Assembly (NCBI GenBank): GCA_027484145.1
Contig: JAIXUH010000014.1
Coordinates: 1 to 64,000, forward strand
Reading direction: 5' to 3'
From: Rhodobacter sp.
Lineage (GTDB): Bacteria; Pseudomonadota; Alphaproteobacteria; Rhodobacterales; Rhodobacteraceae
Length of the DNA: 64,000 nucleotides
The position numbers and the translations under genes are program-made. The notes under the pieces are model-generated. The model searched no databases. It was not told the DNA's origin and saw only the letters and a list, made by a program, of their open reading frames with translations. Below are positions 11,407 to 54,555 of the stretch, in pieces (the stretch's first letter is position 1; the number at the start of each line of letters is the position of its first letter).

Positions 11407-11436
11407 TTGACAGTAGCAACGCTGCACGTGTTTAAT
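11407..11436 (+). promoter_or_regulatory. Predicted sigma-70 promoter of the polyketide cluster
   Basis: A perfect -35 TTGACA (11407-11412), an 18-bp spacer and a -10 TTTAAT (11431-11436, five of six consensus bases) lie 55 bp upstream of the first cluster gene. The -10 is followed by an A/T-rich stretch suitable for initiation near 11443. No other element of this quality was noticed ahead of the cluster. The downstream genes are almost gapless, so this promoter could serve a transcript of nearly 40 kb. Confidence 0.6.
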
Positions 11437-11491
11437 CGACACAATAAAGAGTAGTGCTGGTTTTCTGAAACAATCGCTTAGGTTGAGTAAA

Positions 11492-12448
11492 GTGACAGCA
11501 AAGCCTGCTCTTGGCGGACGTTCCTCTATGGTTGCAACGGACCGCGATGCTTTGCCCTCGCTGCGCGTGAAAATCGACTACGCCGCCCTGAACTTCCGTG
11601 ACTTCATCACTGCCTCTGGCATGTTTGGTTCCGTTCCACCCGGCTATGTTCCGGGGAACGAAGGCGCAGGCATTGTTCTGGCCTCGGATGATCCGGCGTT
11701 CCAGACGGGTGACCGCGTCTTTGTCAGCGGTCACGGGTTGGGGGAAAAGCTTGGCGGCACCACTGCAGGCGAGCTTGATGTGCCCATCGCCGCTGCGTGT
11801 CCGCTGCCAGATGGAATGACAACATGGCAGGCCGCCACTTTGGGCGTTGCAGCATTGGTTGCTGTGGCCGCAGGGCAAGCCATGACGTCGGGGCGTAATG
11901 CTTTGCAAGGCGGCACGTCTGTGGCCGTCACGGGCGCGATGGGTGGAACCGGACGGGTGGCCGCTGCCTATTTCGCGCGCAGCGGTCAGTTGGTCACCGC
12001 CTTTACCCGCGACCCCGCCCTTGCAAACGTTCTTGCAGATCTGGGCTGCGCCGAGGTTCTTGGCCTTCCCGATGCAAGTGCACTGGCAGCAGATGCCTTT
12101 GGACCAGAACGCTTTGCCGCCGCCCTTGATGTCACCGGCACACTGGTAAACTGGCTGATACGCCACATGCAAACAGACGGAACGCTGGCGCTTGTCGGGT
12201 TCAGCGCGGGTCGCACGGTCCAATTGAACGCGATTGCGGTGATTTTGCGCCGGCTTCGGTTGGTTGGGGTCAATGCGGGTTTGGGGGCTGCCGAAAAGAC
12301 GCGCGCCTTGGACGCGGTTTCAAAGGTGCTGCAGCCCGGTGATTATGACCGGCTGGCCCGTCTGGTCCAACCGCAGGATGTGGGGCGGGTCTTGCGCCAG
12401 TTCGGACAAGGGGCGGGGCAGGGCCGCATCGTCGTGGCGCTGACATGA
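11492..12448 (+). CDS. MDR-superfamily enoyl reductase (AcuI/YhdH-like)
   Basis: A roughly 318-aa NADPH-dependent medium-chain reductase. The N-terminal GroES-like part has YAALNFRDFITASG, VPGNEGAGIV, DRVFVSGHGLGEKLGG and PLPDGMTTWQAATLG; the nucleotide-binding part has VAVTGAMGGTGRVAAAYFAR. No zinc ligands are evident. This pattern fits the acryloyl-CoA reductase/quinone oxidoreductase branch, which reduces activated C=C bonds. It is the first gene of the cluster and overlaps the AT-AT-ER gene by ATGA. It could act as an extra trans-acting enoyl reductase on the chain, or reduce the predicted butenolide, analogous to the reductase step of A-factor biosynthesis. The N-terminus is short for the family; GTG 11492 is chosen, with TTG 11483 and ATG 11528 as alternatives. 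Confidence 0.8.
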   Translation: MTAKPALGGRSSMVATDRDALPSLRVKIDYAALNFRDFITASGMFGSVPPGYVPGNEGAGIVLASDDPAFQTGDRVFVSGHGLGEKLGGTTAGELDVPIAAACPLPDGMTTWQAATLGVAALVAVAAGQAMTSGRNALQGGTSVAVTGAMGGTGRVAAAYFARSGQLVTAFTRDPALANVLADLGCAEVLGLPDASALAADAFGPERFAAALDVTGTLVNWLIRHMQTDGTLALVGFSAGRTVQLNAIAVILRRLRLVGVNAGLGAAEKTRALDAVSKVLQPGDYDRLARLVQPQDVGRVLRQFGQGAGQGRIVVALT

Positions 12449-15400
12449 AGGACAGCATCGCCCCCTTTCAGACAGGAACGTCAAGAGGAACGGCTTTCCT
12501 GTTTCCGGGGCAGGGCGTTCAGTATTTTCACATGGGGTCGGTTCTCTTCCAGAACGACCCGGTGTTTCGCGATACCCTCGTGCGGTTGGACCGCGCCCTG
12601 ATTGCTGATGGCAACCCGTCTGTTCTGGACTGGCTTTACGCCACGGACACCGGACGGGACGCGGTTTGCGATGATCTGCGGTTTACCCACCCGGCCCTTT
12701 TGATGATCGAAATGGGATTGGCGCTTCGATTGCAAGCGGGGGGGACTGAGCCGGACATCCTTCTTGGCGTTTCGCTGGGCGAATTTGCAGCGGCGGCGTT
12801 TGCGGGTGTTTTGCCGCCGGAAGAGATGTTGTGCTGTATCGCCAAAACCGCGCGCATCATCCACGAACGCTGCGATGCCGGGCGGATGCTTGCCGTTCTT
12901 GGGCCGCTGTCGGCCTTTGACGATCTGCACGGGGTGGAATTCGTCGGAGAGCAGGCGGAAAACCATTTTGTCATCTCGGGCCCCCTAGACGCCGTGGATG
13001 AGGCTGCGCAAACCTTGCGCGCCAAAGGAGTGCTGGTTGCAGCGCCGCCTGTGGCGCGCGCTTTCCACAGCAGCGCGATGAATACCGTCGCCGACGACGT
13101 GGCTGCCGTCTTTGCCAACCGCAGATATCGCCCCCCGCAGGTTCCGCTGATTTCTGCCATGACCGGCGGGTTCGTCACCGCACCTGATGCCGCCCACTTT
13201 GCCCAGATCGGGCGGGGCCAGATCAATTTCCGTACGGCAGTGCAGACATTGGAGTTGCACGGCAAGGTTTGCCTTCTGGTCGACGTGGGGCCTTCGGGCA
13301 GCCTTGCAACGCTGGCCGCCCGATCGCTTGGCGGGGGGCAGGACTGGCCGCAGGAACGGATCCTTTCGCCATTCGCGGCAGGGCAGAGCGAACTGGATCG
13401 CCTGAGGGCGCTGGACGAGGTAAGTATGAAAGACCTTGAGGACGGAGCCTTTTCGCGGCGCGGCAGCCAATGGGGCAAGGCGGTGGTCTTTGCCGGGCAG
13501 GGATCGCAGGTCGTGGGCATGGGGGCGGATCTGTTTCCGCGGTTTCCGGAACTGGTGGCCAGTGCCGACCGTATCTTGGGCTATTCGATTGCTGACTTCT
13601 GCCGCGACAATCCTTCGGGAAAGTTGGGCGATACACGCTTTACCCAACCCTTGGTGTTTTGCGTCAATGCACTTGCCTGGAAGGATCATGTCGCGCGGCA
13701 CGGAATGCCTGATGTTCTGGCCGGACATTCGCTTGGGGAAATGAATGCCCTGTTCGCCGCAGGGGTGATGACGTTCGAATCGGCGCTGAGCATCGTCAAG
13801 ACGCGGGCCGAACTGATGGCCGGGGCGCCTGCTGGGGCAATGTCGGCGGTTCTTGGGCTGGATCGCGCACGGCTGGAACGCGTGATTGAAACGGGTGGTC
13901 TTGACCGGATCGACATTGCGAACCTGAACACGCCTGGTCAGATCGTCATATCCGGCGATGCCGATCAGGTCCGCGCGGCGGGGCCACTGATCCAAGAGGC
14001 AGGGGCGCGGGCCTGCATTCCCCTGCCCGTAAGCGGGGCATTCCATTCTCGCCTGATGCGACAGGCGGAAACCGCCTTTGCCGCGCATCTTCAAGGGTTT
14101 GATTTCGCAGCGCCACAGGTGCCCGTGATCTCGAACGTGACGGCGCGTCCCTATGCAGAGCAGGATATCGGTGGCCAGATCGCCCGCTTGCTTTCGCGGT
14201 CAGTCGATTGGGTCGGGACCATCGGGCATATGCTTGACCGGGGGGTGACGGACTTTGTTGAACTGGCCCCAAAGCCCGTTCTGACGCAGATGATCGCCGA
14301 GATCCGTCGCAGCCATGTGATAGCTGTACCGGAGGCGCCGGTTGCACCGCTGAGCCTGCGCGAAAAGGAACCGGCGGCACCTGCTGTGCCACTCGTGCCG
14401 GTGCTGCGCCAAAGCGGCAGCGGGCTAGGTGCAGAAACCCTCGGATCAGCGGAATTTCGGGCCGCCTACGGGGCGAGATACGCCCATATCTGCGGTGGCA
14501 TGGTGCATGGCATTGCCAGCGTTGACTGGGTTGTTGCCTGCGCGAATGCGGGCCTCTTGTCCTTTTTCGGAACGGGGGGGATTTCGCCAGACCGCGTCGA
14601 AGCAGCCTTGGCCGATCTGACGACCAGAATTGCTCCGGACAAGCCCTTTGGAATCAATCTGCTAAACGGATCGAACGAAGCCGCCAACGTGGCCTTGTTC
14701 CTGCGTTATGGGATCCGGACGATCGAGGCATCCGCCTTTATCAAAATGACGCCCGATCTTGTGCGCTATCGCCTGTCGGGGCTTTCGCGCGATGCGCTGT
14801 CACCCGGTGGCGTTGCTATCGGCAACCGGATCATTGCCAAGCTGTCCCGCCCGGAAGTGGCGCGCGCCTTTTTGTTGCCTGCGCCCGAGCAAATCGTTCA
14901 GGCGCTGTTGGCCGAGGGCAAGATCACATCCGATATGGCCGAACTGGCGCGCAAGGTTCCGATGGCAGACGACATTTGCGTAGAGGCCGATTCCGGCGGG
15001 CATACCGATCAGGGAAATGCGACCGTCCTGATCCCGGCGATCTGCCGTCTACGGGATACGATTCAAGCTGAGATGGGATATGCGCGCCAGGTGCGGGTTG
15101 GATCTGGCGGCGGGATCGGAACCCCGGACGCTGCAGCGTCGGCGCTGATGCTGGGGGCCCAATTCACGCTGACGGGATCCATCAACCAGTGCACGCGCGA
15201 GGCTGGAACCAGCAATCTGGTCAAGCAGATGTTGGCCGAGGCCGAAGTTCAAGATACCGCCTATGCCCCCGCCGGGGACATGTTCGAAATCGGCGCAAGG
15301 GTGCAGGTCTTGCGGCGGGGTGTCCTGTTTCCGGCGCGCGCCAACCGGCTGTTCGATCTTTACATGCGCCACGACCGGATCGAGGATATCGACAGCCAGA

Positions 15401-15762
15401 CCCGTGATCAGATCGAGACACGCTATTTCCAGCGCAGCTTTGATCAGGTCTGGCAGGATTGTGTGGCCTATTGGCCCGCCGCTGCCATTGACCGCGCGCT
15501 TTCAGTGCCGAAGCAGAAGATGGCTTACATCTTTCGCTGGTATTTCGGCCTGTCCGGTCGGCTGGCCTTGCAAGGTGCTGCTGAACGCAAGGTCGATTTC
15601 CAGATCCATTGTGGCCCGGCCATGGGGGCTTTCAATCAATGGGTTGCCGACACCCCGCTTGCGGATTGGCAAAGCCGCTCGGTGGTGGCTGTCAACACGC
15701 GGCTTCTGACGGCGACAGCCGACAGGATCGAACGTGCCATCCAAGACTTTTCAAGGAGATAG
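12445..15762 (+). CDS. Tandem trans-acyltransferase/enoyl reductase (AT-AT-ER)
   Basis: A 1105-aa protein serving the AT-less modules. AT1 (about residues 15-310) has GVSLGE with Ser110 and AFHSS. AT2 (about 340-625) has GHSLGE with Ser429, the KTRAELM Arg that grips malonyl carboxylate, and GAFHSR. AT2 therefore looks like the malonyl transferase. In AT1 the corresponding Arg is Ala (KTARIIH) and the active-site His-Ser pair is Val-Ser, as expected of an acyl hydrolase that clears stalled chains. The C-terminal part (about 650-1105) is a PfaD-type FMN enoyl reductase with GGMVHGIAS, FGTGG, EADSGGHTDQ and VGSGGGIGTPDAA. This three-domain layout is known from several trans-AT systems. Start and stop are tightly coupled to the neighbouring genes. 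Confidence 0.95.
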   Translation: MKDSIAPFQTGTSRGTAFLFPGQGVQYFHMGSVLFQNDPVFRDTLVRLDRALIADGNPSVLDWLYATDTGRDAVCDDLRFTHPALLMIEMGLALRLQAGGTEPDILLGVSLGEFAAAAFAGVLPPEEMLCCIAKTARIIHERCDAGRMLAVLGPLSAFDDLHGVEFVGEQAENHFVISGPLDAVDEAAQTLRAKGVLVAAPPVARAFHSSAMNTVADDVAAVFANRRYRPPQVPLISAMTGGFVTAPDAAHFAQIGRGQINFRTAVQTLELHGKVCLLVDVGPSGSLATLAARSLGGGQDWPQERILSPFAAGQSELDRLRALDEVSMKDLEDGAFSRRGSQWGKAVVFAGQGSQVVGMGADLFPRFPELVASADRILGYSIADFCRDNPSGKLGDTRFTQPLVFCVNALAWKDHVARHGMPDVLAGHSLGEMNALFAAGVMTFESALSIVKTRAELMAGAPAGAMSAVLGLDRARLERVIETGGLDRIDIANLNTPGQIVISGDADQVRAAGPLIQEAGARACIPLPVSGAFHSRLMRQAETAFAAHLQGFDFAAPQVPVISNVTARPYAEQDIGGQIARLLSRSVDWVGTIGHMLDRGVTDFVELAPKPVLTQMIAEIRRSHVIAVPEAPVAPLSLREKEPAAPAVPLVPVLRQSGSGLGAETLGSAEFRAAYGARYAHICGGMVHGIASVDWVVACANAGLLSFFGTGGISPDRVEAALADLTTRIAPDKPFGINLLNGSNEAANVALFLRYGIRTIEASAFIKMTPDLVRYRLSGLSRDALSPGGVAIGNRIIAKLSRPEVARAFLLPAPEQIVQALLAEGKITSDMAELARKVPMADDICVEADSGGHTDQGNATVLIPAICRLRDTIQAEMGYARQVRVGSGGGIGTPDAAASALMLGAQFTLTGSINQCTREAGTSNLVKQMLAEAEVQDTAYAPAGDMFEIGARVQVLRRGVLFPARANRLFDLYMRHDRIEDIDSQTRDQIETRYFQRSFDQVWQDCVAYWPAAAIDRALSVPKQKMAYIFRWYFGLSGRLALQGAAERKVDFQIHCGPAMGAFNQWVADTPLADWQSRSVVAVNTRLLTATADRIERAIQDFSRR

Positions 15763-15769
15763 ACATCCG

Positions 15770-16030
15770 ATGACCACAGTCATGTCGCGGATCGCGAGCT
15801 ATATCGAAGGTCAATTCCTCGTCACGCTTGGCGAGGATTTCGAACCGGACACGAACCTGTTCGAAACCGGGATCATGGACAGTTTCGGCTACGTCCAATT
15901 GATCGATTTTCTGCAGACAGAGTTTGGCCTGACGTTGGCGGATGAGGATTTCCTGACAAACGTGATGGTCAGCCTGACACGAATGACCGCAACGGTTTCA
16001 GCCAAAATGGCACAGGAACAGGTGACCTGA
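15770..16030 (+). CDS. Stand-alone acyl carrier protein
   Basis: An 86-aa carrier protein; the phosphopantetheine Ser lies in GIMDSFGYVQLIDF near residue 40, within a normal four-helix ACP length. It starts 7 bp after the AT-AT-ER gene with AAGGAG upstream, and ends 3 bp before the amidotransferase gene. That tight pairing with an AsnB-type enzyme is the arrangement seen in glutarimide polyketide clusters, where the free ACP carries malonyl and is amidated to malonamyl-ACP, the starter for the first KS. PKS1 begins directly with a KS and has no loading domain, which fits. An in-frame ATG at 15782 is an alternative start. Confidence 0.92.
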   Translation: MTTVMSRIASYIEGQFLVTLGEDFEPDTNLFETGIMDSFGYVQLIDFLQTEFGLTLADEDFLTNVMVSLTRMTATVSAKMAQEQVT

Positions 16031-16033
16031 ACC

Positions 16034-18022
16034 GTGTGTGGTATTGCCGGATCATTTGCACCCGACGGGGTGTCTGCCCCCCATGGCCCCGACGTGATGG
16101 TGGCGATGCTGGCCCGCATCGGACACCGCGGTCCGGATGAGGCTGGGTATTACAGCGACAATCGCTGTTCGCTCGGCATGGTCCGCCTGAGCATTCTTGA
16201 TCTGGCATCGGGCCAGCAACCGATGGCCAGCCCTTCGCAGCGGTTCTGGTGCGTTTTCAATGGTGAAATCTACAACTACGTCGAGTTGCGTGAGGAGTTG
16301 CAGCAGCAGCACGGGATGCAGTTTCGCACGGATGGTGATACCGAAGTGCTTTTGCGGGCTTGGGAAGCTTGGGGCACCGACTGCCTGTCACGTCTGAACG
16401 GCGCCTTTGCCTTTGCAATCTATGACCGGGATAGCGGACGCTTGGCCCTTGCGCGCGACCGCTTCGGCAAGCGGCCGCTCTTTTGGACAAGGGCCAGCGG
16501 GCGCTTTGTATTTGCCTCGGAAATCAAGGCGTTTCTGGGCTGCGGGGATGTCGGTTTCGAAACCGATCCAGCCCATTTCGCGGCCATTCTGGCCAGTTGG
16601 ACCCTGTCACCCGGCCAGACCGGCTGGAAAGGGATCAAGACATTGCCAGCGGGCGGCTGGATGGAGATCGCTGCCGACGGTGCGATCCGCTCAGGGCGCT
16701 ATACCACGCTGGACTTCAAGCAGCGTCAACAGTTCGGGTCCATGGCCGAAGCGGCCGAGGCCATTCGTGCCGCCGTAATCCGGGCTGTGACCATCCGGAT
16801 GCGAAGCGATGTTCCGGTGGGGCTTTATCTTTCGGGCGGATTGGACAGCACGATCATTGCAGCCATCCTTGCCGATCTGCGCGGCGATGATCCGGCCTGC
16901 TCATACTCGATCGGGTTCGAGGATGAGGGTCTGGACGAAAGCCCGTTTCAGGCCATCGCCAGCGCGCGATTTGGCACGCAGCATACCACGTTGCGGGCAA
17001 CCCACCGCGATATCTGCGGTGCCTTTGCACAAGCCGTCTATCATGCCGAGGTGCCGGTTTTCCGCACGGCTTTTGTGCCGATGTTCCTTTTGTCGCAACG
17101 GGTGCAATCCGACGGGATCAAGACCATCCTGAGTGGCGAAGGTGCCGACGAGGTTTTCCTTGGCTATGATCTGTTCCGGGAAACCATGTTGCGCCAAAAC
17201 TGGGCCGGGCTTGATATGGAAACCCGCAAAGCGCGGGTAGCACGGCTGAACCCCTATCTGAAGCATTTCGCCACAGCGCCCGGTGCGGGAATGGTCGGGC
17301 TTTACGACCAGTTTGCGACCGAACGTTTGCCGGGGCTGTTCTCGCACGAGATCCGCTATCAGAACGGCAACCTGTCACTGCGCCTTTTGGCCGACCGCGA
17401 TCTTGCCGCCCATGCGCTGGATCCGTTGATGGCAGCCACCGCCCAAGCACCGGGGTTTGCCGAAATGTCGGCCGTGGAAAAGGCACAGTGGCTGGAGTTC
17501 AATACTCTTTTGCCGGGCTATTTGCTGTCCACCCAAGGGGAACGTATGGGCATGGCCCATGGCGTGGAAAACCGCTGCCCCTTCCTTGATCCGAACCTTG
17601 TGGCGATGGCGGGTTCGGTGAACCTGAAACATGATGACGGCTGGTCGGAAAAGGCCATTCTGAAGCATGCCTTCCCAGAACTGCCCGACGAGATACGCGC
17701 CCGCCACAAACACCCCTACCGCGCGGCAGACAGCAAATCCTTTGTGCTGGAACGGCCCGAATACATGGAAATGGTGTTGTCCGCGCAAGAGCTTGGCCGG
17801 TCGGGAATGATTGACGCGCGCTTTGCTGAACGTTTGGTCACAAAGATCATGACCCAACCTAGCGAGCGTATCAGCATCAGCGAAAATCAGGCGTTTGTCG
17901 CCCTGCTCAGCTTTCAGATGCTGCAGCACCAGTATGTGCGCCGCGAGGGTCTGCCTGAGGTATCGGAAGCGGCCCTGCGTGGCCGGTTGCGGGTCTGCGT
18001 CGAAGAAAGGCAGGCCGCATGA
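16034..18022 (+). CDS. Asparagine synthetase-like amidotransferase (starter amidation)
   Basis: A 662-aa glutamine-hydrolysing amidotransferase. Translation starts at GTG 16034 so that the nucleophile Cys2 (M-C-G-I-A-G) is correctly placed; GHRGPDE, FNGEIYN and RTDGDTE of the glutaminase domain follow. The synthetase domain has the ATP pyrophosphate loop SGGLDS (residues 267-272), SGEGADEVFLGY and HGVENRCPFLD. Housekeeping AsnB amidates aspartate. Here the gene lies between a free ACP and PKS1 (ATGA overlap), so the likely reaction is ATP-dependent amidation of malonyl-ACP to malonamyl-ACP. The amide nitrogen would become the imide nitrogen of a glutarimide ring. Substrate assignment is by context; family is certain. 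Confidence 0.93.
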   Translation: MCGIAGSFAPDGVSAPHGPDVMVAMLARIGHRGPDEAGYYSDNRCSLGMVRLSILDLASGQQPMASPSQRFWCVFNGEIYNYVELREELQQQHGMQFRTDGDTEVLLRAWEAWGTDCLSRLNGAFAFAIYDRDSGRLALARDRFGKRPLFWTRASGRFVFASEIKAFLGCGDVGFETDPAHFAAILASWTLSPGQTGWKGIKTLPAGGWMEIAADGAIRSGRYTTLDFKQRQQFGSMAEAAEAIRAAVIRAVTIRMRSDVPVGLYLSGGLDSTIIAAILADLRGDDPACSYSIGFEDEGLDESPFQAIASARFGTQHTTLRATHRDICGAFAQAVYHAEVPVFRTAFVPMFLLSQRVQSDGIKTILSGEGADEVFLGYDLFRETMLRQNWAGLDMETRKARVARLNPYLKHFATAPGAGMVGLYDQFATERLPGLFSHEIRYQNGNLSLRLLADRDLAAHALDPLMAATAQAPGFAEMSAVEKAQWLEFNTLLPGYLLSTQGERMGMAHGVENRCPFLDPNLVAMAGSVNLKHDDGWSEKAILKHAFPELPDEIRARHKHPYRAADSKSFVLERPEYMEMVLSAQELGRSGMIDARFAERLVTKIMTQPSERISISENQAFVALLSFQMLQHQYVRREGLPEVSEAALRGRLRVCVEERQAA

Positions 18023-21000
18023 CAACCGTGCCGGAACCTATCGCGATCATCGGTCTTGCACTTCGCTTTCCGGGGGCCGAAACGCTGGGTGGCTTTTGGG
18101 ACATCATCGCCGCGGGTCAGGTCAGAATAACCGAACTGCCGATGCAACGCCGATCTGCGGGCTTTCCACCGGACCGCTTGTTCTGGGGCGGATTCGTCGA
18201 TGGGGCAGATGGTTTCGACCCATTGTTCTTTGGCATTTCCGCGCGTGAGGCAAACCGGATGGATCCGCAGCAGCGGTTCATTCTGGAAACAGCATGGAAC
18301 GCGCTGGAAGACGCCGCCATTGCACCCTCGCGTCTGGCATCGCGCGAGGTGGGCGTGTTCATGGGGGCCTGCCACTGGGATTACCTTGAAATGCAGGCCC
18401 GCGCGACGCCCGAGGTTGAGGCGCATATGGCCACGGGCATTTCGCAGGCGATCCTGTCGAACCGCGTGTCCTATCTGTTCAACTTTACCGGCCCAAGCGT
18501 GACCAATGACACGGCCTGTTCGAGTGCGCTGGTCGCCATTGAACAAGCGGTTCAGGCCTTACGCGCGGGGTCCTGCACGCTGGCGCTTGCCGGGGGCGCA
18601 AACCTGATCTGGTCGCCGGACCATTTCCTTGCGTTTTCCAAGGCGGGCATGCTGTCCAAATCCGGTGCATCGCGGGCGTTTGACGCGCGTGCCGACGGGT
18701 ATGTTCGCGGCGAAGGCGCTGCAGTTGTTGTGCTCAAACCGCTGGCACAGGCATTGGCGGACGGCGACCCCGTTCACGCCGTGATCCGCGAAGTGGCCTC
18801 GAACCATGGGGGTCATAGTGCCGGTCTGACGGTGACCAACCCAACCGAACAGGCGGCGCTGATCACGCGCGTCTTGTCGCGGGCCGGTATCTCGCCCGAG
18901 ACGCTGGGCTATGTTGAAGCGCACGGAACCGGCACCCCGGTGGGTGACCCGATTGAGGTTCGGGGTTTGAAAACCGCGCTGGAAGGGCTTTACGCCAAGG
19001 GTCGGCTGACCGCCGCCGAAGGTGTGACGCGGATCGGCTCGGTCAAGAACAACATCGGGCATCTGGAAGGCGCTGCCGGTATTGCCGGTGTCGCAAAGGT
19101 CGTGGCCGCACTGAAGCATCGGCAAATCCCTCCGACGGCTGGATTTGAGCGGCCAAACCCCCTGTTGCGCCTTGCCGGATCGCCTTTGCGTGTCGCAAAC
19201 CGGTTAGAGCCTTGGCCCTTGCCCGAAGGGTCGCTGCGGCGTGCGGGTGTCAGTTCGTTCGGCTTTGGCGGCACCAATGCCCATGCCGTGATCGAAGAAT
19301 TCGTCCCCGACCTAGCTGGCACGCAAGGGGCGGATTGGCAAAGCGGCTGGCCAATCCTGCTTTCGGCGCGCAGCGAGGTTGCCCTGAAACGCCGTTGTAC
19401 CGATCTGGCCCATTGGCTTGAACAGACCCCGGATGCGGACCCTGCGGCCGTTGCCGCAAGCTTGATCCACGGGCGCGAAGCCATGCCGCACCGTGCGGCA
19501 ATCCTCGCTTTGGGTGCCGAAGGGCTGCGCGTACAACTGGCGGCCATCGCATCGGGCAGAGCGGTCCCGGATGGGGTCTGGCTGGGCAAGGTTGATGAGG
19601 AAACGGCGCCTCCGGAAGCCGTTTCTGACGATCTGGCTTCTCAGCTTGCGGCTTGGGCAAAGGGCGCGTCTGTCGATTGGGCAGCACATGCGACGTCCGG
19701 GCCACGCCTGCATTTGCCCGGCTATGTTTTTGACCGGACCAGCCACTGGTTTGAACCGCTGGCGGCGCCCGAACGTCTGCCCCTGCCTGTTCAAGATGAC
19801 CTGCGGTTTGATCTGGTTGAATACGGCGCCCGGCTGCAGGTTCCTGCCAAGCATCCCTATCTGTCACATCACATCATCGGCGGGACGGCCATCCTGCCGG
19901 GCGTTGTGACGTTGTCTTATGTCGCCCGTGCCCTTGCCCCGCCAGACGCCGCCGGTAGGGCAGTACTACGCGATGTTGTCTGGCTTCGCCCTGCGAGGGC
20001 AACCGCATCAGGCGTTGACCTGACGATCCGGCGACAGGGCGACGATGGTTTCATCGTGCAGGATGAAGCGTCCGAGACAGTGGCGCGTGGCCGTATTGCC
20101 CGACCGGAAGCCCAGCCTGTGTTGGCTGTTCCGGCCGATCATGGCACAGACCTCGGCCTGCCTTATGAACGGCTGACAAGCGCTGCGATTGAACATGGCC
20201 CCGCGTTCCGCGCGGTCAGCAAGATGACGCTTGTCGCAGGGCAGGTGGTCGGCCAGCTGGATCTGCCGGCAGAAGCCCCATTGCAACAGACCGCCGCACA
20301 CCCTGTGCTGCTGGACGCGGCATTGCAGACCGTCGTCGCGGCGCTGTTCCCCGGCGAAGCACCGGGCGTGCCCTTTGCCGTCGAGCAGTTCGAGGTTTCT
20401 GGTGAAGTGGCGGGTCAGGCGATCTCGATCTGTCGGCGGCGCGCCAATGGGCGGCATGATGTTGATATCGTCGCCAATGGCCGTACCGTGGCCCGGATTT
20501 CAGGTTTCGCAACGCGTCCCATTGCGGCACCTGCGGCGCAGGCCCTTGTGGTCGCGGAACCCGTTGTAGACACGATGACTCAGGGACCGGCCCCAGGTGC
20601 CGTGGTGCAGGCCGTGTTTGATGCATACCCGTCCCAAGATTTCGTGCTTGTGGGGCACGGGGCACGTGGGCCGCGCAAGCTTTCGATCCCATCGGCACAA
20701 ACACCTGACGGTGACGCAAGCAGCCTGCATGACGCACTTTGGCAGGTTCTGTCGACCCTGCGCGACTGGATGCGCGATGGTGATCTGAATGCCATCTGGC
20801 TTCGTCCGGGCCGGACGGCGTTTGCGGCCTGTGTCAGGCCTTTGATCCGCACGCTGGCATTAGAAGGCGGGGGGCTTCGGGTCGATCTGGCACCACCAGC
20901 GCAGGACAGGTCATTTGCAGCGGCAAAGCCATCAAGTCCGGTCAGAGATGACGTAGCGGGTGCCGTGATTCTGATCACCGGCGGCGCAGGTGCCATTGGC

Positions 21001-48260: not shown

Positions 48261-48269
48261 GGACGGGAC

Positions 48270-48980
48270 ATGAAACACATCAAACTGATCGCGGTCGATC
48301 TGGACGGTCCCTTGCTGACAGACAGTTTCGCGCCATTGCTCAGGCAAAGTTGCGCGTTTGGCGGCCTGACCTATTCACGCGAGATGGAGGACAACATGTT
48401 CTCGCGCAATCGCAAGGAAGCGACACGCTATTTCATGTCTTGCTTCGGAGAGAATCCGCCCGAGTCCTTGAAGGGCAAGACACATGAGGAAATGATCGCC
48501 GATTACTTTGCGTTTCGGGCCGCGTTCTTGCAGGAAAATCCAATCGCCCTGTCAGAAGGGGCTGCGGGCTTCATGCAGATGCTCGGTGATCTGGGGGTTC
48601 AGCTGATCTGTTATGGTGGTCTTGACGAGGACTATATGCGCCGCGAACTTGGCAGCCACGCCGATGTCTTCGATGCCTATGTCTGCACGAATGATTTCCG
48701 GCCCGGTGTTCGTGAAATCGTGCAGGATATCGCCAAGGTTTCGCCTGACAGCGCCGTGTTTATCGACGACGTGAATTTTGTCGCGCGCCATGCCCGCGAG
48801 CAGGGAGCGTGCTTTGTCGGTGTTCCGGCGCGCACGGATTGGGGGTGGCAACGCACCGGCATGCTTGAGGATGGCGTTCCACACATTGTCGAGCACGTCG
48901 GGCAGATCGACATGGCCTTGCTAGACCGGATCGACACTCAGGCCGCAGCCGGGATGTTCTGGTCCGGGGGACAGGCATGA
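48270..48980 (+). CDS. HAD-superfamily phosphatase
   Basis: A 236-aa haloacid dehalogenase-type hydrolase. Motif I is VDLDGPLL with Asp10 and Asp12, a cap domain of about 70 residues follows, and motif IV is VFIDDVNFVARHA. The family removes phosphate from small organic molecules in the cytosol. The gene sits 9 bp after PKS2, whose C-terminus is AfsA-like. If release uses dihydroxyacetone phosphate, the product would leave the synthase as a phosphorylated butenolide, and this phosphatase is the obvious candidate to remove the phosphate. Phosphatase activity is likely from the family; the substrate is inferred from position only. Confidence 0.88.
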   Translation: MKHIKLIAVDLDGPLLTDSFAPLLRQSCAFGGLTYSREMEDNMFSRNRKEATRYFMSCFGENPPESLKGKTHEEMIADYFAFRAAFLQENPIALSEGAAGFMQMLGDLGVQLICYGGLDEDYMRRELGSHADVFDAYVCTNDFRPGVREIVQDIAKVSPDSAVFIDDVNFVARHAREQGACFVGVPARTDWGWQRTGMLEDGVPHIVEHVGQIDMALLDRIDTQAAAGMFWSGGQA

Positions 48981-49011
48981 AGCGCCATGACGTTTGCGAA
49001 AAGGCGCTGAC

Positions 49012-50628
49012 ATGCAGCTGATTGACCTGCTTCGCAAGGAATCCGAGCCGCGACTGCGGTTGATCCTGACGCTTTCGATGTTGTCGGGTGCCTCCAATGC
49101 TGCGCTGGTTGCGCTGATCAACGCCGGCGCATCGGCGGTGTATTCAAGCAACGCCGCCACGCGTGAATTCATTCTGTTTCTGTTGGTGCTGGTGATCTTT
49201 GGTGTGACCAAGGTGAAGGCAGAGGTGGCCGGAAAAGAGCTGTTTGATGCGGCCATGGCCCGGCAGCGCGTGCGCCTGATGGAAAAGCTGCTGTTTGTCC
49301 GGCTTGACCGGCTGGAGCGGATGCGAAACACCGACATTATCGCGTCCAGCGCCCGCAACATCGGCCATGTCGTGCAGGCATCCGATGTGATCGTCTATGG
49401 CCTGCAATCCATGTTCATGCTGGTCTTCTGTGCGATCTATCTTCTGTATCTGTCGCCTGCCGCCTTCGTGGCCGTTGGCGCGGGTCTTGCCGTGGCGGCG
49501 ATGTATCGTCACTCCAGCCGCGAACAGGCCCGCACCGGCCAAGAGCGCATCATCTCTACAGACAGCGACCTGTCACACATGATGGCTGAAACGCTGCGCG
49601 GGTTCATGGAAGTCAAGCTGAACGCCGAACGCCGCACTGCGATACATCGCACCTATAATGATCTGGTCGTGGTCAACAGCAAACTGGTGAACGAAGCCAC
49701 CCGCGACACGGTGCAGGCGCGGATGGTGATCCAGTCGATCTTCTATTGGGTCATTGCGGCCGTCGTCTTTCTGATCCCACGGTTCTCGAATGTCTATTCG
49801 GTTGAGATTCTGGAAATCACCGCCGTTGTGCTGTTCCTGATCGGCTATCTGGCCGGTTTTCTGGACATCATCCCGATGGTCGGGCGAACCAATGCCGCGC
49901 TGAAGGGCTTGGCCAAGCTGGAAGCCGAGCTTGACGAATTGGCCGAAGAACAGCAGGCCAATACCCCACCGATCGAGGCGTTCCAGTCACTGGAACTTCG
50001 GGGCTTGACCTATACCTACACGGATCCGGATGGCAGCAACGGCTTTTCCCTTGGCCCGATCGATCTGTCACTTCGGGCGGGGCAATTGCTGTACATTATC
50101 GGGGGCAACGGGTCCGGCAAATCGACCTTGATCAAGTCGCTGACTGGGCTTTATGCCAGTGCATGTGACGGTGTCTGGCTGAACGGCGAACAGGTTCGCC
50201 CGGATACGGTCAATCGCCTCCGCAGTGTGTTTTCGCTTGTCATGAGCGACTTCCACCTGTTCGAACGGTTCTACGGCTATGAAAATGCCGATCCCAAGCA
50301 GATCACACTCTGGCTGGATCGCATGGGGCTAGCGCACAAGGTGCGCTTTGAAAACGGCACCTTCTCGACCCGAAAGCTTTCGACCGGCCAGCGAAAACGT
50401 TTGGCGCTGATCACGATGCTGGTCGAAGACCGCCCGGTGTTCATCTTTGACGAATGGGCGGCAGAACAGGACCCGCACTTCCGCGATGTCTTCTATAACG
50501 AGCTGCTTCCAGACCTGCGCAACAGGGGTAAGGCCGTGATCTCGGTCACGCATGACCAAAACTTCCTGGGGAATGCCGATATGGTCGTCAGGCTTGAATA
50601 CGGGAGGATCGTGGCCCCCGAAAGCTGA
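49012..50628 (+). CDS. ABC exporter, fused TM-ATPase (cyclic-peptide/siderophore export type)
   Basis: A 538-aa half-transporter: about 320 residues with six predicted membrane helices, then an ATPase domain with Walker A GGNGSGKST (near residue 363), signature LSTGQRKRLA and the FDEWAAEQDP Walker B variant. LSTGQ plus FDEWAA is characteristic of the SyrD/PvdE-like cyclic peptide export group. It would dimerise in the inner membrane and export the polyketide. The start at ATG 49012 has AAAGG upstream; an in-frame TTG at 48994 is less likely. It lies 31 bp after the phosphatase gene, inside the apparent operon. It is the only obvious exporter in the cluster. Confidence 0.92.
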   Translation: MQLIDLLRKESEPRLRLILTLSMLSGASNAALVALINAGASAVYSSNAATREFILFLLVLVIFGVTKVKAEVAGKELFDAAMARQRVRLMEKLLFVRLDRLERMRNTDIIASSARNIGHVVQASDVIVYGLQSMFMLVFCAIYLLYLSPAAFVAVGAGLAVAAMYRHSSREQARTGQERIISTDSDLSHMMAETLRGFMEVKLNAERRTAIHRTYNDLVVVNSKLVNEATRDTVQARMVIQSIFYWVIAAVVFLIPRFSNVYSVEILEITAVVLFLIGYLAGFLDIIPMVGRTNAALKGLAKLEAELDELAEEQQANTPPIEAFQSLELRGLTYTYTDPDGSNGFSLGPIDLSLRAGQLLYIIGGNGSGKSTLIKSLTGLYASACDGVWLNGEQVRPDTVNRLRSVFSLVMSDFHLFERFYGYENADPKQITLWLDRMGLAHKVRFENGTFSTRKLSTGQRKRLALITMLVEDRPVFIFDEWAAEQDPHFRDVFYNELLPDLRNRGKAVISVTHDQNFLGNADMVVRLEYGRIVAPES

Positions 50629-50736
50629 CCAAAGAAGAGTTACGACACGACTCGCCGAATGCCGCCAACCTCACCGGAAATACGGACACCGGGGCCAAGC
50701 GCACTCTGATACACCGTTTAAGCAAGGAGAATTCTA

Positions 50737-51321
50737 ATGAGCAAAGCAGAAGCCGTCGCCGCCGAAAAAGCCGCTGAAACCGCCGCCCCGACACGGGCCC
50801 CGGTTCCAAAAGCTGAAGCGGATGTTCTGATCGACAAACACATGCTGGGCGCCATGGGCGTGGGCCTTGTGCCGATCCCCGTGATCGACCTGATCGGCGT
50901 TGGTGCCATCCAGTTCACCATGATCCGCAAGCTGGCCGTTCTATATGGCGTCGAGGCTTCGGATGCACGTGTGCGGACTGTCCTGATGTCGCTGTTGGGC
51001 GGTTCCGTCCCGGCCTTTGGGGCGCTGCCGCTGTTTTCACTTGTCCAGATGATCCCCGTAATCGGCTGGACGGTTGGTGCAGGCGCGGCATCCATTCTGT
51101 CGGGCGCCTCGACCTATGCGGTTGGTCATACCATGCGTCGCCACTTCGAATCCGGCGGCACGGTTGACGACTTCAAGGCAGAGGCTGCGAAGGAAACCTT
51201 CAAGGATCTGATGGAAAAAGGAAAGTCTGCGGCAAAGTACGTCAGCCGTCGCGGAAAGGCCGATCCGGCAGAAGCTGCGGCGACACCAAAACCGGCAACC
51301 ACTGAACCGGCTGCTTCTTGA
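50737..51321 (+). CDS. DUF697-type membrane protein
   Basis: A 194-aa protein with a polar Ala/Lys/Pro N-terminus, then a DUF697-like core (about residues 33-140) with GLVPIPVIDLIGVGAIQ and two further hydrophobic segments around PLFSLVQMIPVIGW and AASILSGASTYAVG, and a charged C-terminal tail. DUF697 proteins are inner-membrane proteins of unclear function, often beside YcjX-type GTPases; no GTPase is seen here. AAGGAGA lies 6 bp upstream of the ATG. It is 108 bp after the exporter and precedes an SPFH gene, so it may belong to a membrane module transcribed with the cluster. Confidence 0.8.
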   Translation: MSKAEAVAAEKAAETAAPTRAPVPKAEADVLIDKHMLGAMGVGLVPIPVIDLIGVGAIQFTMIRKLAVLYGVEASDARVRTVLMSLLGGSVPAFGALPLFSLVQMIPVIGWTVGAGAASILSGASTYAVGHTMRRHFESGGTVDDFKAEAAKETFKDLMEKGKSAAKYVSRRGKADPAEAAATPKPATTEPAAS

Positions 51322-51374
51322 AATGAACGCGGGTTCGGCCCCGCCGAACCCGTCCCCAATTGAGGTGGCATCGC

Positions 51375-52187
51375 ATGCGCAGACTTGCTGCGAAAGGTTT
51401 CTTGGGACTTCTTCTTGTGGTGACGCTCGTCGTCTACTTCATCCCCGAGATATTCATAACCGTCGGTCCCGGCGAAGCCGCTGTCCACTGGCGTCGTTTC
51501 TTTGGCGGCACGGTGACGGATGTCGTCCGAGGGGAAGGGCTGCAAGTCATCTTCCCGTGGGACGAGCTTTACATCTATGACACCCGCGTCCAACAGGTTG
51601 AACGGTCTTTGCCGATCCTGACAAGCGAAGGGCTGATGGCCACCGCCGTCATTTCGATCCGCTTTCAGCCGGACCGCAATCTTCTGGGCAAGTTGCACCA
51701 GCGGGTCGGCCCGGATTATGCCGCCAAGGTGGTGATCCCCGAGGTCGAAGGTGCGGTTCGAAAGGCGCTTGGCGGGCTGGACTCTGCCGGCCTCTACACG
51801 CGAAGCGGCGATCTCATTCAGGACAGCGTGGCAGAAGTATCCGAAGCTCTGGCGCAGAATTACCTCCAGATCGACGATGTCGTGATCCAGCGGATCATTC
51901 TGCCAGAGGTCTTGCAAGATGCGGTCATCGAAAAGGCGCGTCAGCAGCAGGTCGCAGATTCGTATGTCTATCGTCTGAAGGCCGCCGAAAGCGAGGCAGC
52001 GCGGCTGAAGATCGAGGCCGACAGTTACGCAGCCTACAACGAGGTCATCAGCAAGACTCTGACTCCCGAACTTTTGACCTGGGAAGGGGTGCGCGCAACA
52101 AAGGACATCGCGACGTCTGAAAACTCGAAAGTCATCATCATGGGCAATGGCAAGGATGGCCTGCCCGTTATCCTGAACAGTGATTGA
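51375..52187 (+). CDS. SPFH/Band-7 (prohibitin-like) protein
   Basis: A 270-aa membrane-anchored protein. One N-terminal helix (GLLLVVTLVVYFIPEIFI) is followed by the Band-7 fold: VGPGEAAVHW, RGEGLQVIFPW, RVQQVERSLPILTSEGL, then an Ala/Glu-rich coiled-coil stretch (AESEAARLKIEADSYA). SPFH proteins form large membrane-associated assemblies and chaperone or partition other membrane proteins. The start at 51375 follows a GAGGTGG sequence. The gene lies between the DUF697 gene and a receptor-like gene that it overlaps by 8 bp. A scaffolding role for the neighbours is plausible but inferred. Confidence 0.88.
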   Translation: MRRLAAKGFLGLLLVVTLVVYFIPEIFITVGPGEAAVHWRRFFGGTVTDVVRGEGLQVIFPWDELYIYDTRVQQVERSLPILTSEGLMATAVISIRFQPDRNLLGKLHQRVGPDYAAKVVIPEVEGAVRKALGGLDSAGLYTRSGDLIQDSVAEVSEALAQNYLQIDDVVIQRIILPEVLQDAVIEKARQQQVADSYVYRLKAAESEAARLKIEADSYAAYNEVISKTLTPELLTWEGVRATKDIATSENSKVIIMGNGKDGLPVILNSD

Positions 52188-53535
52188 GAGACTGACCGTG
52201 GATAACAGGCTGATTTACCTCGTCTACTTCCTGCTGATGACGACTGGCGCCTTTCTGACGATCCAGGTCATCCTTGCGATCGGCTCCCGAAAGGCCGTGC
52301 GCTGGAAGGCTTTGGCCGCGTTCATGGCCTTGGTCGGAGTGATCGCTGGCTATTACTTCTGGGAAACCTCACTCCGGTTGGATTCATTGGCAGGCGCGCG
52401 GCGCGAATATGCCCGCTCGGCCGAGGTGACGACCCGTATAGCCGTCCCGTGGATCGATAACGAAAATGCCTTTCTGACTGGCGCGAACCGCGCGGCCGCC
52501 GAGATCAATGCCACGCCAATCAAGGTGTTTCTGCCCGATGGCAGTGAAAAGGCCTTGAACGTGGAAATCGTGCCGTTTCCCTATGTAAAGGGACAGGCGG
52601 GCGATGTGGCAAAGCAGATTGCGCGTGATCCGTCGATCGCGGGCGTGATTGGTCATCCCGACATTGACGGTGCGATTCAGGCATCTGCCACCTATGATGC
52701 CGCCAAGGTTTTGTATTTTGCGCCGACGATCCGTCTGGCCCAACTGACGGAGCATGGCTTTCCGGCTGTCTTCCGGCTCAGCCCAAGCGACGCAGAAGTG
52801 GCCGCCGCAATTGCCGACTTTGCCGACAAGAATGGTCTGTTCAACATCGTCATCGTCTCGCCGCGCAGCGAATATGGCTATGATCTGTTCCAGATCTACA
52901 AGGGTGAAATCTCTGCCCTGAGTTCATCGCAGGATCAGGCTGACGCGCCCCATGTGCGCCGGTTCATCTCGTACTCGCCCGAGTTGCGCCGCTTTGACGA
53001 GATCATCACAAGCTTCATCGATACGGCAACACGCGAACAGATGCAGGTTGATCTGGTGGTTGTGCTTGGCACCTCGCCGGCAGAGGCCGCGCTTTTGCAG
53101 CAGATGCGCCAGCGCAATCTTCGTGCAGCGGTTCTCTGCCTGCCGGGCTTGAAAGACGAGGCAATCAATCTGGTCAAGTCCACGCCAGACAGCATGGCGG
53201 GCACGATCTATGTTCTGTCCTATGGTGACCCCAAACCCGACCCAAGCGATCCGGCCACCAGCGAAATCGCGTCAAGCGAAGTTCTGGGCTATGACACGGT
53301 CAAGCTGATGGCAGAGGCTTGGAAACGCACCGGATCGACCGAAGCCCTTGAAGCTGCATTGTCGCTGCGGGCGATGCCGGATTGGAAGTTGGGCAGTCTG
53401 CCGCTTGATTTCCTGCCAACGGGCGCGGTGACGAACATGCCGATCCGCGTGGAAAAGCTCGACCCGGCCTTGGGCGGCCAGCCTCAGGTTGTCTATGAAA
53501 AACAAGTTCAGGACGCACCGCAATCGCCACCCTGA
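52180..53535 (+). CDS. Membrane-anchored periplasmic-binding-fold receptor-like protein
   Basis: A 451-aa protein. Two hydrophobic segments (about residues 10-36 and 46-65) are followed by a large soluble domain resembling branched-chain amino-acid-type (Leu/Ile/Val) binding proteins: a GANRAAAEIN start, AGVIGHPDIDGAIQASATYDAAKVLYFAP, FRLSPSD, IVSPRSEYGYDLFQIY and SSEVLGYDTVKLMAEAW. It lacks a cleavable signal and has no permease or ATPase partner nearby, so it looks like a sensor or a scaffold-bound ligand-binding protein and not part of a normal importer. The start GTG 52180 overlaps the SPFH stop by 8 bp; GTG 52198 is an alternative. Ligand unknown. Confidence 0.8.
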   Translation: MIERLTVDNRLIYLVYFLLMTTGAFLTIQVILAIGSRKAVRWKALAAFMALVGVIAGYYFWETSLRLDSLAGARREYARSAEVTTRIAVPWIDNENAFLTGANRAAAEINATPIKVFLPDGSEKALNVEIVPFPYVKGQAGDVAKQIARDPSIAGVIGHPDIDGAIQASATYDAAKVLYFAPTIRLAQLTEHGFPAVFRLSPSDAEVAAAIADFADKNGLFNIVIVSPRSEYGYDLFQIYKGEISALSSSQDQADAPHVRRFISYSPELRRFDEIITSFIDTATREQMQVDLVVVLGTSPAEAALLQQMRQRNLRAAVLCLPGLKDEAINLVKSTPDSMAGTIYVLSYGDPKPDPSDPATSEIASSEVLGYDTVKLMAEAWKRTGSTEALEAALSLRAMPDWKLGSLPLDFLPTGAVTNMPIRVEKLDPALGGQPQVVYEKQVQDAPQSPP

Positions 53536-53559
53536 CCTGCCTCAGTGGGAGAAGCAGAC

Positions 53560-53721
53560 ATGCACATACCCTTCTTCATCTATCTTGGCCTGTGTCTGGT
53601 CGTGGCCGTGATGGGCATGAACCGGAAGATGGGATTTTACGGCTATCTCTTTGCCTCGATCGTGCTGACGCCCCTTATCGGGGGGTTGCTGGTGCTGGTT
53701 TCGGGTCCGCGCAAACAGTGA
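53560..53721 (+). CDS. 53-aa two-helix membrane protein
   Basis: A small gene of 53 codons: MHIPFFIYLGLCLVVAVMG, a short Arg/Lys turn, then YGYLFASIVLTPLIGGLLVLV and a basic tail. It forms two hydrophobic helices joined by a positive loop. A GGGAG ribosome-binding sequence lies 8 bp before the ATG, and the gene begins 24 bp after the receptor-like gene. Its last 47 bp overlap the 3' end of the convergent phosphopantetheinyl transferase gene. The function is unknown. Good RBS, spacing and hydrophobic pattern make it credible despite its size. Confidence 0.65.
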   Translation: MHIPFFIYLGLCLVVAVMGMNRKMGFYGYLFASIVLTPLIGGLLVLVSGPRKQ

Positions 53722-54403
53722 CCTTTGCCAGCGCGACCTCTGGCAGGGCGGAGCCCGACAACACGGTGACCTCATAGGTCCGGCAGCCATATGCGACGTG
53801 GTGGTTCAGGTTGCCCGTTTCATCCAGCACGCAAAGGGTGCGGGGCGCCCCGGCAAAACCAAGTCCGGCCGCCTTCAGGATAGCCTCCTTGAACCGCCAG
53901 ATTTGCAGGAACAGGGCGCGCTGCGCCAAGGGCTGATCGGCCAGCAAAGCGAGGGCAGCCAATTCTTCATCGCAGAAAACCTGTCCCGCGATGCCCAAAA
54001 GGCCATCAGTTCCCAGCCTTAGGCCGAGTTCAAGATCACATCCCACAGCGACAGGAGAAAAGGCGACCGCAACCCATGGGCCAGAGTGGCTGATGCTGAA
54101 ATGCCATCCGGCATCCTTGGCTTCCGGCTTGCCAAGCGTGTCAAGCACGATGCCAATTTCCAAAGCGGCGCGCCCCGTTACCAGCGAAAGCACCCGCCGC
54201 GTGATAGAGCGGCCGAGAACAAAACTTGCCCGGGCCGTTTCATCACGAAAAGCCTGTGCCCGGTGACGCTCTGACTCTGACAGCAGGTCAAGCGAAACCA
54301 AGGCCAAGGCTTCGGGCCAGTCAATCTTTGCCATCACGCAAACGGTCGGCTGACCGCTGAACAACTCAGCGGAAAGGGATGCCAAAGGGTGAAGCATCGC
54401 CAT
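53675..54403 (-). CDS. Sfp-type 4'-phosphopantetheinyl transferase
   Basis: About 242 aa; transfers phosphopantetheine from CoA to carrier proteins. Family motifs are present: FSISHSGPWVAVAFS near the middle, GCDLELG (metal-binding Asp/Glu) and WRFKEAILKAAGLG with the catalytic Glu-Lys pair. It is the only such enzyme seen in the window, and the cluster has 12 ACP domains to be activated, so a dedicated role is likely. It converges on the cluster and overlaps the preceding small gene by 47 bp. The start is uncertain: ATG 54403 is chosen, TTG 54418 is possible, giving 5 more residues. Confidence 0.9.
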   Translation of the reverse strand: MAMLHPLASLSAELFSGQPTVCVMAKIDWPEALALVSLDLLSESERHRAQAFRDETARASFVLGRSITRRVLSLVTGRAALEIGIVLDTLGKPEAKDAGWHFSISHSGPWVAVAFSPVAVGCDLELGLRLGTDGLLGIAGQVFCDEELAALALLADQPLAQRALFLQIWRFKEAILKAAGLGFAGAPRTLCVLDETGNLNHHVAYGCRTYEVTVLSGSALPEVALAKVTVCADPKPAPATPR

Positions 54404-54555
54404 GTCGAACCCTGCCAAAAGACCGCCCTCACCTTAGGCAGGGGGGCGCGACAATACCATGCCCCCTGATCTCCAATACTGCGGCGCTCTGGCGACGAGA
54501 TGGCTCCGGAACGCTTTCTTTCAGCCCGGAGAGAGGGTCAGAAATCTGGTGAACA

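Follow-up and report, generated by a model that had tools for sequence, protein, structure and literature searches.

Glutarimide polyketides block eukaryotic translation (PMC7756379), and modules 2 to 4 of the polyketide synthases (PKSs) that make them have been published as identical in all such systems, with a C-methyltransferase (MT) in module 4. The combination of a glutarimide with chain release by an AfsA domain, a rare polyketide ending, has been in print since 2020, and the closest described systems are the gladiofungin/gladiostatin (gla/gds) clusters of Burkholderia gladioli. The literature drawn on here comprises PMC7756379, PMC7756420, PMC7930024, PMC8262917, PMC10574677, PMC10811503, and PMC9964501. 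Gladiostatin (C27H39NO8) is described there as built by nine modules: module 5 lacks a ketoreductase (KR) and an enoyl reductase (ER), module 6 lacks a dehydratase (DH), and modules 6 to 8 have no ER. The AfsA domain, which condenses 3-ketothioesters with dihydroxyacetone phosphate, sits in module 9. Here we analyse the window, a stretch of 64,000 nucleotides (positions 1 to 64,000, forward strand, of contig JAIXUH010000014.1) that represents one contig of the 4.97 Mb genome of a Rhodobacter sp. (Rhodobacteraceae; assembly GCA_027484145.1). To judge from its genes, it probably (with a probability of about 0.82) carries a complete PKS cluster of the kind served by acyltransferases (ATs) in trans, for a glutarimide-butenolide of the gladiofungin class that would be two carbons shorter and released with dihydroxyacetone phosphate. 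What is new is a shortened variant of the gladiofungin type in an alphaproteobacterial host, and not a new kind of system. Because glutarimide biosynthesis with AfsA release has been published since 2020, the find is less surprising than the preliminary description, made from the letters of the DNA alone, had taken it to be.

The proteins of the window were searched against Pfam and NCBIfam, and domain order was read with hidden Markov models (HMMs) trained on domains of the window itself, which were applied to the window and to loci fetched from other genomes. All genes between 11.48 and 53.54 kb lie on the forward strand, and the block ends with a 4'-phosphopantetheinyl transferase (PPTase) gene on the reverse strand (53678..54418; ACPS, E 1.3e-8). 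The limits first proposed, 11407..54403, need correction: the block held in common with a second genome, a Marinibacterium described below, runs from 11,483 (or an ATG near 11,528) to 54,418. A recent import is unsupported by composition, the GC content being 0.60-0.64 from 12 to 48 kb and 0.58-0.59 from 48 to 54 kb, against 0.59-0.63 in the flanks. A 16S gene that could point to the genus was looked for in the genome, and none was found.

The nine ketosynthases (KSs) of the cluster reside in two subunits, and all nine keep the Cys-His-His residues. Subunit 1 (18019..26976; 2985 residues) has the order KS1-DH-KR-ACP-KS2-B-ACP-KS3, where ACP is an acyl carrier protein and B a branching domain. 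Module 1 consists of KS1 (18034..19443), a DH (19819..20568), a KR (20944..21498) and an ACP. KS2 (22159..23433), with the motifs VDTMCSAS, HGSGT, and NIAHL, is read as a branching ketosynthase and is followed by the B stretch (23902..24666). This stretch matches no Pfam family. It is identified by its position and by its resemblance to the stretch after KS2 in four of the seven other loci with such a module (203 bits in L021, 27-43 bits in L023, L111, and L110), and nothing above 25 bits was found at this position in L024, L025, and L026. Module 2 is split, with KS3 (25090..26358) on subunit 1 and its KR and ACP on subunit 2 (26973..48260; 7095 residues), which continues with KS4-ACP, KS5-DH-KR-MT-ACP, KS6-ACP, KS7-KR-ACP, KS8-DH-ACP-ACP-ACP, and KS9-ACP-AfsA. 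In coordinates, these are KS4 of module 3 (28590..29897), KS5 of module 4 (30993..32213) with its MT (34830..35852; Methyltransf_12, E 4e-12), KS6 of module 5, in which no reductive domains were found (36336..37526), KS7 of module 6 (38271..39530), KS8 of module 7 (41604..42911) with three tandem ACPs (44328..45101), and KS9 of module 8 (45207..46502). All three DHs keep HxxxGxxxxP and the Asp of the second half. An extra ACP-like stretch lies in the linker after KS4 (29997-30182, residues 1009-1070 of subunit 2); it has no recognisable serine of the DSL type, and it has a similar counterpart in the Marinibacterium genome.

The KSs were compared in a midpoint-rooted FastTree phylogeny. The window and the fetched loci supplied 268 KSs that cover 380 or more model positions, and the 252 unique ones among them made up the tree; the glutarimide-type reference loci were assigned by architecture alone, and the gladiofungin KSs lie outside the tree. 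KS1 joins its counterparts from six other glutarimide-type loci (support 1.0). KS2 falls within a branching clade of eight, with seven other KS2 sequences (support 1.0), its nearest neighbour being that of Marinibacterium. KS3 stands in a clade of eight KS3 sequences (0.896), KS5 in one of six KS5 sequences (0.955), and KS4 in one of eleven (1.0), of which eight are KS4 by position and three, from L027, L045, and L052, are unassigned in position. KS6 clusters with KSs located after methyltransferase modules (0.906 and 0.993). The KS8 pair and the KS9 pair of the two genomes are sisters (0.887) within a clade of 18; some inner nodes of the tree have very low support (0.0-0.38).

At the C-terminus of subunit 2, after the last ACP, lies an AfsA-like domain, the putative phosphorylated butenolide synthase that would release the chain (47340..48212). 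It matches PF03756 in two stretches at E 1.4e-17, its 64 bits well over the cut-off of 24, and no thioesterase (TE) and no AT family is among the Pfam matches of either subunit. When aligned with AfsA-like proteins of its own bacterial family and of Streptomyces, the domain keeps HPxFFDHPLDHV and the ExxR of the second half; among solved structures, no relative was found at E up to 1. By homology with gladiostatin, release by condensation with dihydroxyacetone phosphate is the best reading. According to Niehs et al., deleting most of the AfsA domain stops gladiofungin production. None of the literature matches listed mentions the catalytic residue of ScbA that was looked for. Directly downstream, a HAD-like protein (48270..48980; PF00702, E 0.061) carries DxDG and DD motifs, and it is plausibly a candidate phosphatase for a phosphorylated butenolide; against solved structures it gave only four matches, all at chance level.

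Upstream of the PKS subunits stand the genes that would supply and prime them. An NAD(P)H reductase of the MDR superfamily, YhdH/acrylyl-CoA reductase-like (11483..12448; ADH_N, E 9.9e-8), may truly start at the ATG near 11528. It scores 158 bits against TIGR02823, under the cut-off of 297, and is a candidate trans-acting enoyl reductase like GlaG/GdsH. Next comes an AT-AT-ER protein of 1105 residues (12445..15762) with Acyl_transf_1 in two stretches and an ER of the PfaD family (TIGR02814 pfaD_fam, 615 bits, above the cut-off of 449). The second AT carries an arginine, in KTRAELM, that we take to bind malonyl, and this arginine is missing from the first AT. Since it is missing, and since GdsB has been published as an acyl hydrolase-AT-ER protein, the first AT is more likely an acyl hydrolase. 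A free-standing ACP, predicted to hold the malonamyl starter (15770..16030, in the open reading frame 15734-16030), is placed between this protein and an AsnB-like glutamine amidotransferase (AMT; 16034..18022; Asn_synthase, E 7.1e-70; GATase_7, E 1.5e-45), the predicted maker of malonamyl-ACP. Loci of Streptomyces, Cyclobacteriaceae, and Pseudomonas encode homologs of the free ACP (40-51% identity) beside an amidotransferase, and the AMT is 46-51% identical to those of L110, L111, L023, and L024. Both homologs adjoin glutarimide-type PKSs in two Streptomyces loci, one Pseudomonas locus, and one Cyclobacteriaceae locus.

The five signatures on which the preliminary description relied are thus all present in the window: the free ACP with an AsnB-like amidotransferase beside the PKS, the order KS-DH-KR-ACP followed by KS-B-ACP, AT-less modules served by a separate AT-AT-ER protein, the terminal AfsA-like domain, and a HAD-like gene directly after it. 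The last, named there as a HAD phosphatase, is better called HAD-like and plausibly a phosphatase gene. The KS phylogeny that had been proposed as a check puts KS2 inside the glutarimide branching clade, followed by a B-like domain. The expectation of a glutarimide at one end and a butenolide or butanolide at the other is supported by the architecture, the KS clades, and the AfsA match, the product itself being a prediction.

A metagenome-assembled genome (MAG) of the same family, Marinibacterium sp. HXMU1420-2 (JAEPNQ01), carries this cluster too, with its gene order kept and spread over three contigs. Wherever its contigs cover the PKS, the domain order is identical, including the three tandem ACPs and the AfsA end; its KS1 is cut off, and in its module 7 DH the pattern with the second-half Asp was not found. 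Identities are 46% for the reductase, 64% for the AT-AT-ER protein, 59% for the free ACP, 62% for the amidotransferase, 53-55% for the PKS subunits, 53% for the AfsA domain over nearly its full length, and 70% for the HAD-like protein. Further downstream they are 61% for the exporter, 68% for the DUF697 protein (over 157 residues), 71% for the SPFH protein, and 41% each for the periplasmic-binding protein and the PPTase. Five proteins encoded in the window outside the block had no match in the fetched stretches of the MAG, which extend past it by no more than about 3.4 kb and 0.5 kb. The same gene order at 38-87% identity between PKS domains and 41-71% between free-standing genes rules out chance. 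A comparison of two collinear clusters at this distance also reveals where constraint is strongest, above all in KS2 (87%, the highest value).

From the gene order, the domains, the KS clades, and their conservation in a second genome, all of which are observed, we infer the chemistry and the product as follows. The AMT, the AT, and the free ACP would form malonamyl-ACP, which module 1 (KS1-DH-KR-ACP) would extend to an enoyl intermediate. KS2 and the B domain would catalyse a vinylogous malonyl addition, after which the chain would close into the glutarimide ring. From there, module 2 (KS3 with its KR) would leave a beta-hydroxyl, module 3 a ketone, and module 4 (DH-KR-MT) a C-methyl group and a double bond. 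Modules 5 to 7 would extend the chain with incomplete reduction in cis, in which the trans-acting ER and the MDR reductase would assist. The beta-ketothioester delivered by module 8 would react with dihydroxyacetone phosphate at the AfsA domain, giving a phosphorylated butenolide, and the HAD-like protein probably takes off the phosphate. Gladiostatin has nine modules and the window eight, so that a skeleton with two carbons fewer (minus one C2H4) is expected. If reduction proceeds as in gladiostatin, the predicted product should be C25H35NO8, with [M+H]+ at 478.2435; since modules 5 and 7 lack a KR, the oxidation level may differ from that of gladiostatin. The shortened cluster thus supplies a definite mass by which its product could be sought, and the glutarimide fragment published for gladiofungin in negative mode lies at m/z 154.05 (C7H8NO3-).

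Several points speak against this interpretation. Its likeness to the gladiofungin cluster is judged from a description and not from sequence. The usual AfsA motif HVPG reads HVSG in both the window and Marinibacterium, and, according to Niehs et al., the exchange E10080A in GlaE left gladiofungin unchanged, so that motif conservation alone is no proof of catalysis. The HAD-like protein reaches 14.2 bits against PF00702, under the cut-off of 26.4. In KR5, a Cys replaces the Asn of YxxxN, likewise in the KR5 of Marinibacterium. The lack of a KR in modules 5 and 7 makes the reduction level in mid-chain uncertain, and the assembly line could pass over a KS or employ it a second time. The product is a prediction from genes.

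Among the rival readings, a different chain length is the most probable. Dehydrating bimodules have the domain order KS-KR-ACP/KS-DH-ACP, which the succession of KS7-KR-ACP and KS8-DH-ACP fits. KS8 might then be non-elongating, or a module might iterate, and the AfsA-released glutarimide would have 23 or 27 carbons instead of 25, the C27 outcome of iteration being gladiofungin itself. Non-linear programming has been published for glutarimide PKSs, and no HGTGT-type motif was found by pattern in 5 of the 18 members of the clade that holds KS8 and KS9, but KS8 itself keeps its Cys, its HGTGT, and its third His in both genomes; we consider such a departure from C25 a serious possibility, though not the one we expect. 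The end group, too, may be other than a butenolide. The AfsA family is described as feeding gamma-butyrolactones and furans as well as butenolides, its intermediates being diversified by later enzymes, and the reductase gene of the cluster might contribute to some other end group derived from the C3 unit, such as a furan or a reduced butanolide. Such an outcome is unlikely in our judgement, as a reductase, a HAD-like protein, and an AfsA-ended PKS make up the very gene set published for gladiofungin, which is a butenolide. It is harder still to credit that the AfsA domain is inactive and that hydrolytic release gives a glutarimide acid or a decarboxylated methyl ketone: gladiostatin does have a known methyl-ketone degradation product, and HVSG departs from the HVPG of most aligned stand-alone relatives, but the domain is kept in two genomes with its other motifs, next to a HAD-like gene that is 70% identical between them. 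The shortened glutarimide-butenolide remains our preferred product.

Searches for AfsA at E 1e-3 indicate how rare such endings are. In the same family, 11 of 394 genomes matched, among them the window's own and Marinibacterium (near full length). Four others, whose frames span 324-598 residues, scored E 7e-9 to 9e-12, while the other five fell at E 5e-4 to 9e-4. The window's genome was the one match among 16 of its own genus, and one of the two genomes of the genus Marinibacterium matched. The class sample yielded 3 of 385 (two marginal), the phylum sample 1 of 398 by profile, and a Massilia-centred family 2 of 392, one partial and one marginal, with none full-length. In the Massilia-centred sample, the locus L108 has a partial match in a frame of 1789 residues near a contig end, with an ACP in the fetched part. 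Genomes were also scanned with two narrow peptide patterns, from which 80 of 133 loci were kept; 47 of these were taken further, and of the 44 genomes searched behind them, 6 had any AfsA match, a strong one only in Marinibacterium. These counts understate, because B. gladioli, a known case, is absent from the 80 kept and because the Ruminiclostridium genome of L083 gave no match at E 1e-3, despite the AfsA-ended assembly lines that Niehs et al. name in Gloeobacter, Paenibacillus, and Ruminiclostridium, so that searches of this kind miss distant cases. Short AfsA-like frames of 324-343 residues occur in genomes of the window's family (L006, L007, and L009), and related proteins are found on Aliiroseovarius crassostreae plasmids; all of these are possibly butyrolactone-type signalling genes.

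Downstream of the HAD-like gene follow an ABC exporter of the cyclic-peptide-exporter family (48994..50628; TIGR01194, 327 bits, cut-off 286), a DUF697 protein (50737..51321; PF05128, E 4.9e-13), and an SPFH/Band-7 (prohibitin-like) protein (51360..52187; PF01145, E 2.2e-23), which together occupy 48994-52187. A periplasmic-binding-fold protein (52180..53535; Peripla_BP_6, E 6.5e-11) completes the forward-strand genes. Matches to the SPFH protein were obtained in 20 plasmid records and to the DUF697 protein in 18, and DUF697 lies at most 4 kb from SPFH in 14 of the 15 SPFH records listed, the exception being Caballeronia. Genes for nonribosomal peptide synthetases (NRPSs) or PKSs were found within about 10 kb in five of the six SPFH records examined: Skermanella, Azospirillum brasilense Sp 7, Rhodobacteraceae SC52, Tistrella mobilis, and Caballeronia (without DUF697). 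In the sixth, from A. brasilense MTCC4039, a single large frame was tested and proved IcmF-like. The plasmid sample is narrow, as 15 of the 20 SPFH records are from Azospirillum. Among the listed literature matches for DUF697 with nonribosomal and prohibitin, there was no mention of DUF697. We tentatively suggest that exporter, DUF697, and SPFH form a little-noticed cassette for export or membrane protection in alphaproteobacterial NRPS/PKS clusters, in which an SPFH-DUF697 membrane platform might load or guard the exporter for hydrophobic products such as the predicted shortened glutarimide-butenolide; we consider this idea less likely than not.

Among the described glutarimide systems, those of Streptomyces (migrastatin, lactimidomycin, cycloheximide, and 9-methylstreptimidone) share the starter genes, module 1, and modules 2 to 4 with the window, but differ, as published, in their TE release and in their other late modules. 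Two further glutarimide-type loci, L110 and L111, were seen on 1.6 Mb linear Streptomyces plasmids (NBC_01483 and NBC_01237), and by HMMs they have the same order of modules 1 to 4. The sesbanimide clusters of Magnetospirillum and Stappia are likewise alphaproteobacterial glutarimide PKSs, but are described with a terminal NRPS module for arginine, a beta-branching cassette, and an oxygen-inserting split module. A sesbanimide-type cluster was rejected for the window, the Pfam matches of the PKS subunits including no adenylation or condensation domain; no HMG-synthase family appeared in the Pfam/NCBIfam matches of the other cluster proteins scanned. Glutarimide blocks have already been reported in Magnetospirillum and Geobacter. 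In the Bacteroidota, a Cyclobacteriaceae MAG (L023) shows such a block as well, with ACP, amidotransferase, and KS-DH-KR-ACP-KS-B-ACP-ACP-KS. In two Kordiimonadales MAGs (L025 and L026), the PKS begins in the glutarimide manner and has an MT in module 3; no amidotransferase match was found in their fetched stretches and no AfsA match in their genomes.

The gla/gds clusters remain the nearest relatives. By their published description, the only basis of this comparison, they likewise have the free ACP, the AMT, a hydrolase-AT-ER protein, and a seven-domain module 1 (PMC7756379, PMC7756420, PMC10574677), together with the AfsA ending. They also have genes for a HAD-type phosphatase and a trans reductase, for which the window has candidates in its HAD-like and MDR reductase genes; the exporter, DUF697, SPFH, periplasmic-binding, and PPTase genes are not named in the published text consulted. 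Among the open-licence papers matched, none pairs gladiofungin or gladiostatin with Marinibacterium or Rhodobacteraceae, and none joins glutarimide, Rhodobacter, and polyketide. Identity with the gladiostatin cluster was rejected, since the published nine-module architecture is not matched in modules 5 to 9, and no identical cluster with a known product was found in the literature covered. None of the outcomes named in the preliminary description as speaking against it was thus observed. Its statement that the module order matches no known product holds for modules 5 to 8 and fails for modules 1 to 4, which agree with gladiostatin. The difference begins after module 4: the window has eight modules and not nine, its module 5 lacks both DH and KR, its module 6 has a KR, its module 7 has a DH and a triple ACP without a KR, and its module 8 is the AfsA module. 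That the pairing of glutarimide and AfsA release recurs in another lineage, far from the first and with an assembly line shorter by a module, suggests a fixed beginning, the early glutarimide block, and a fixed AfsA end around a middle that changes.

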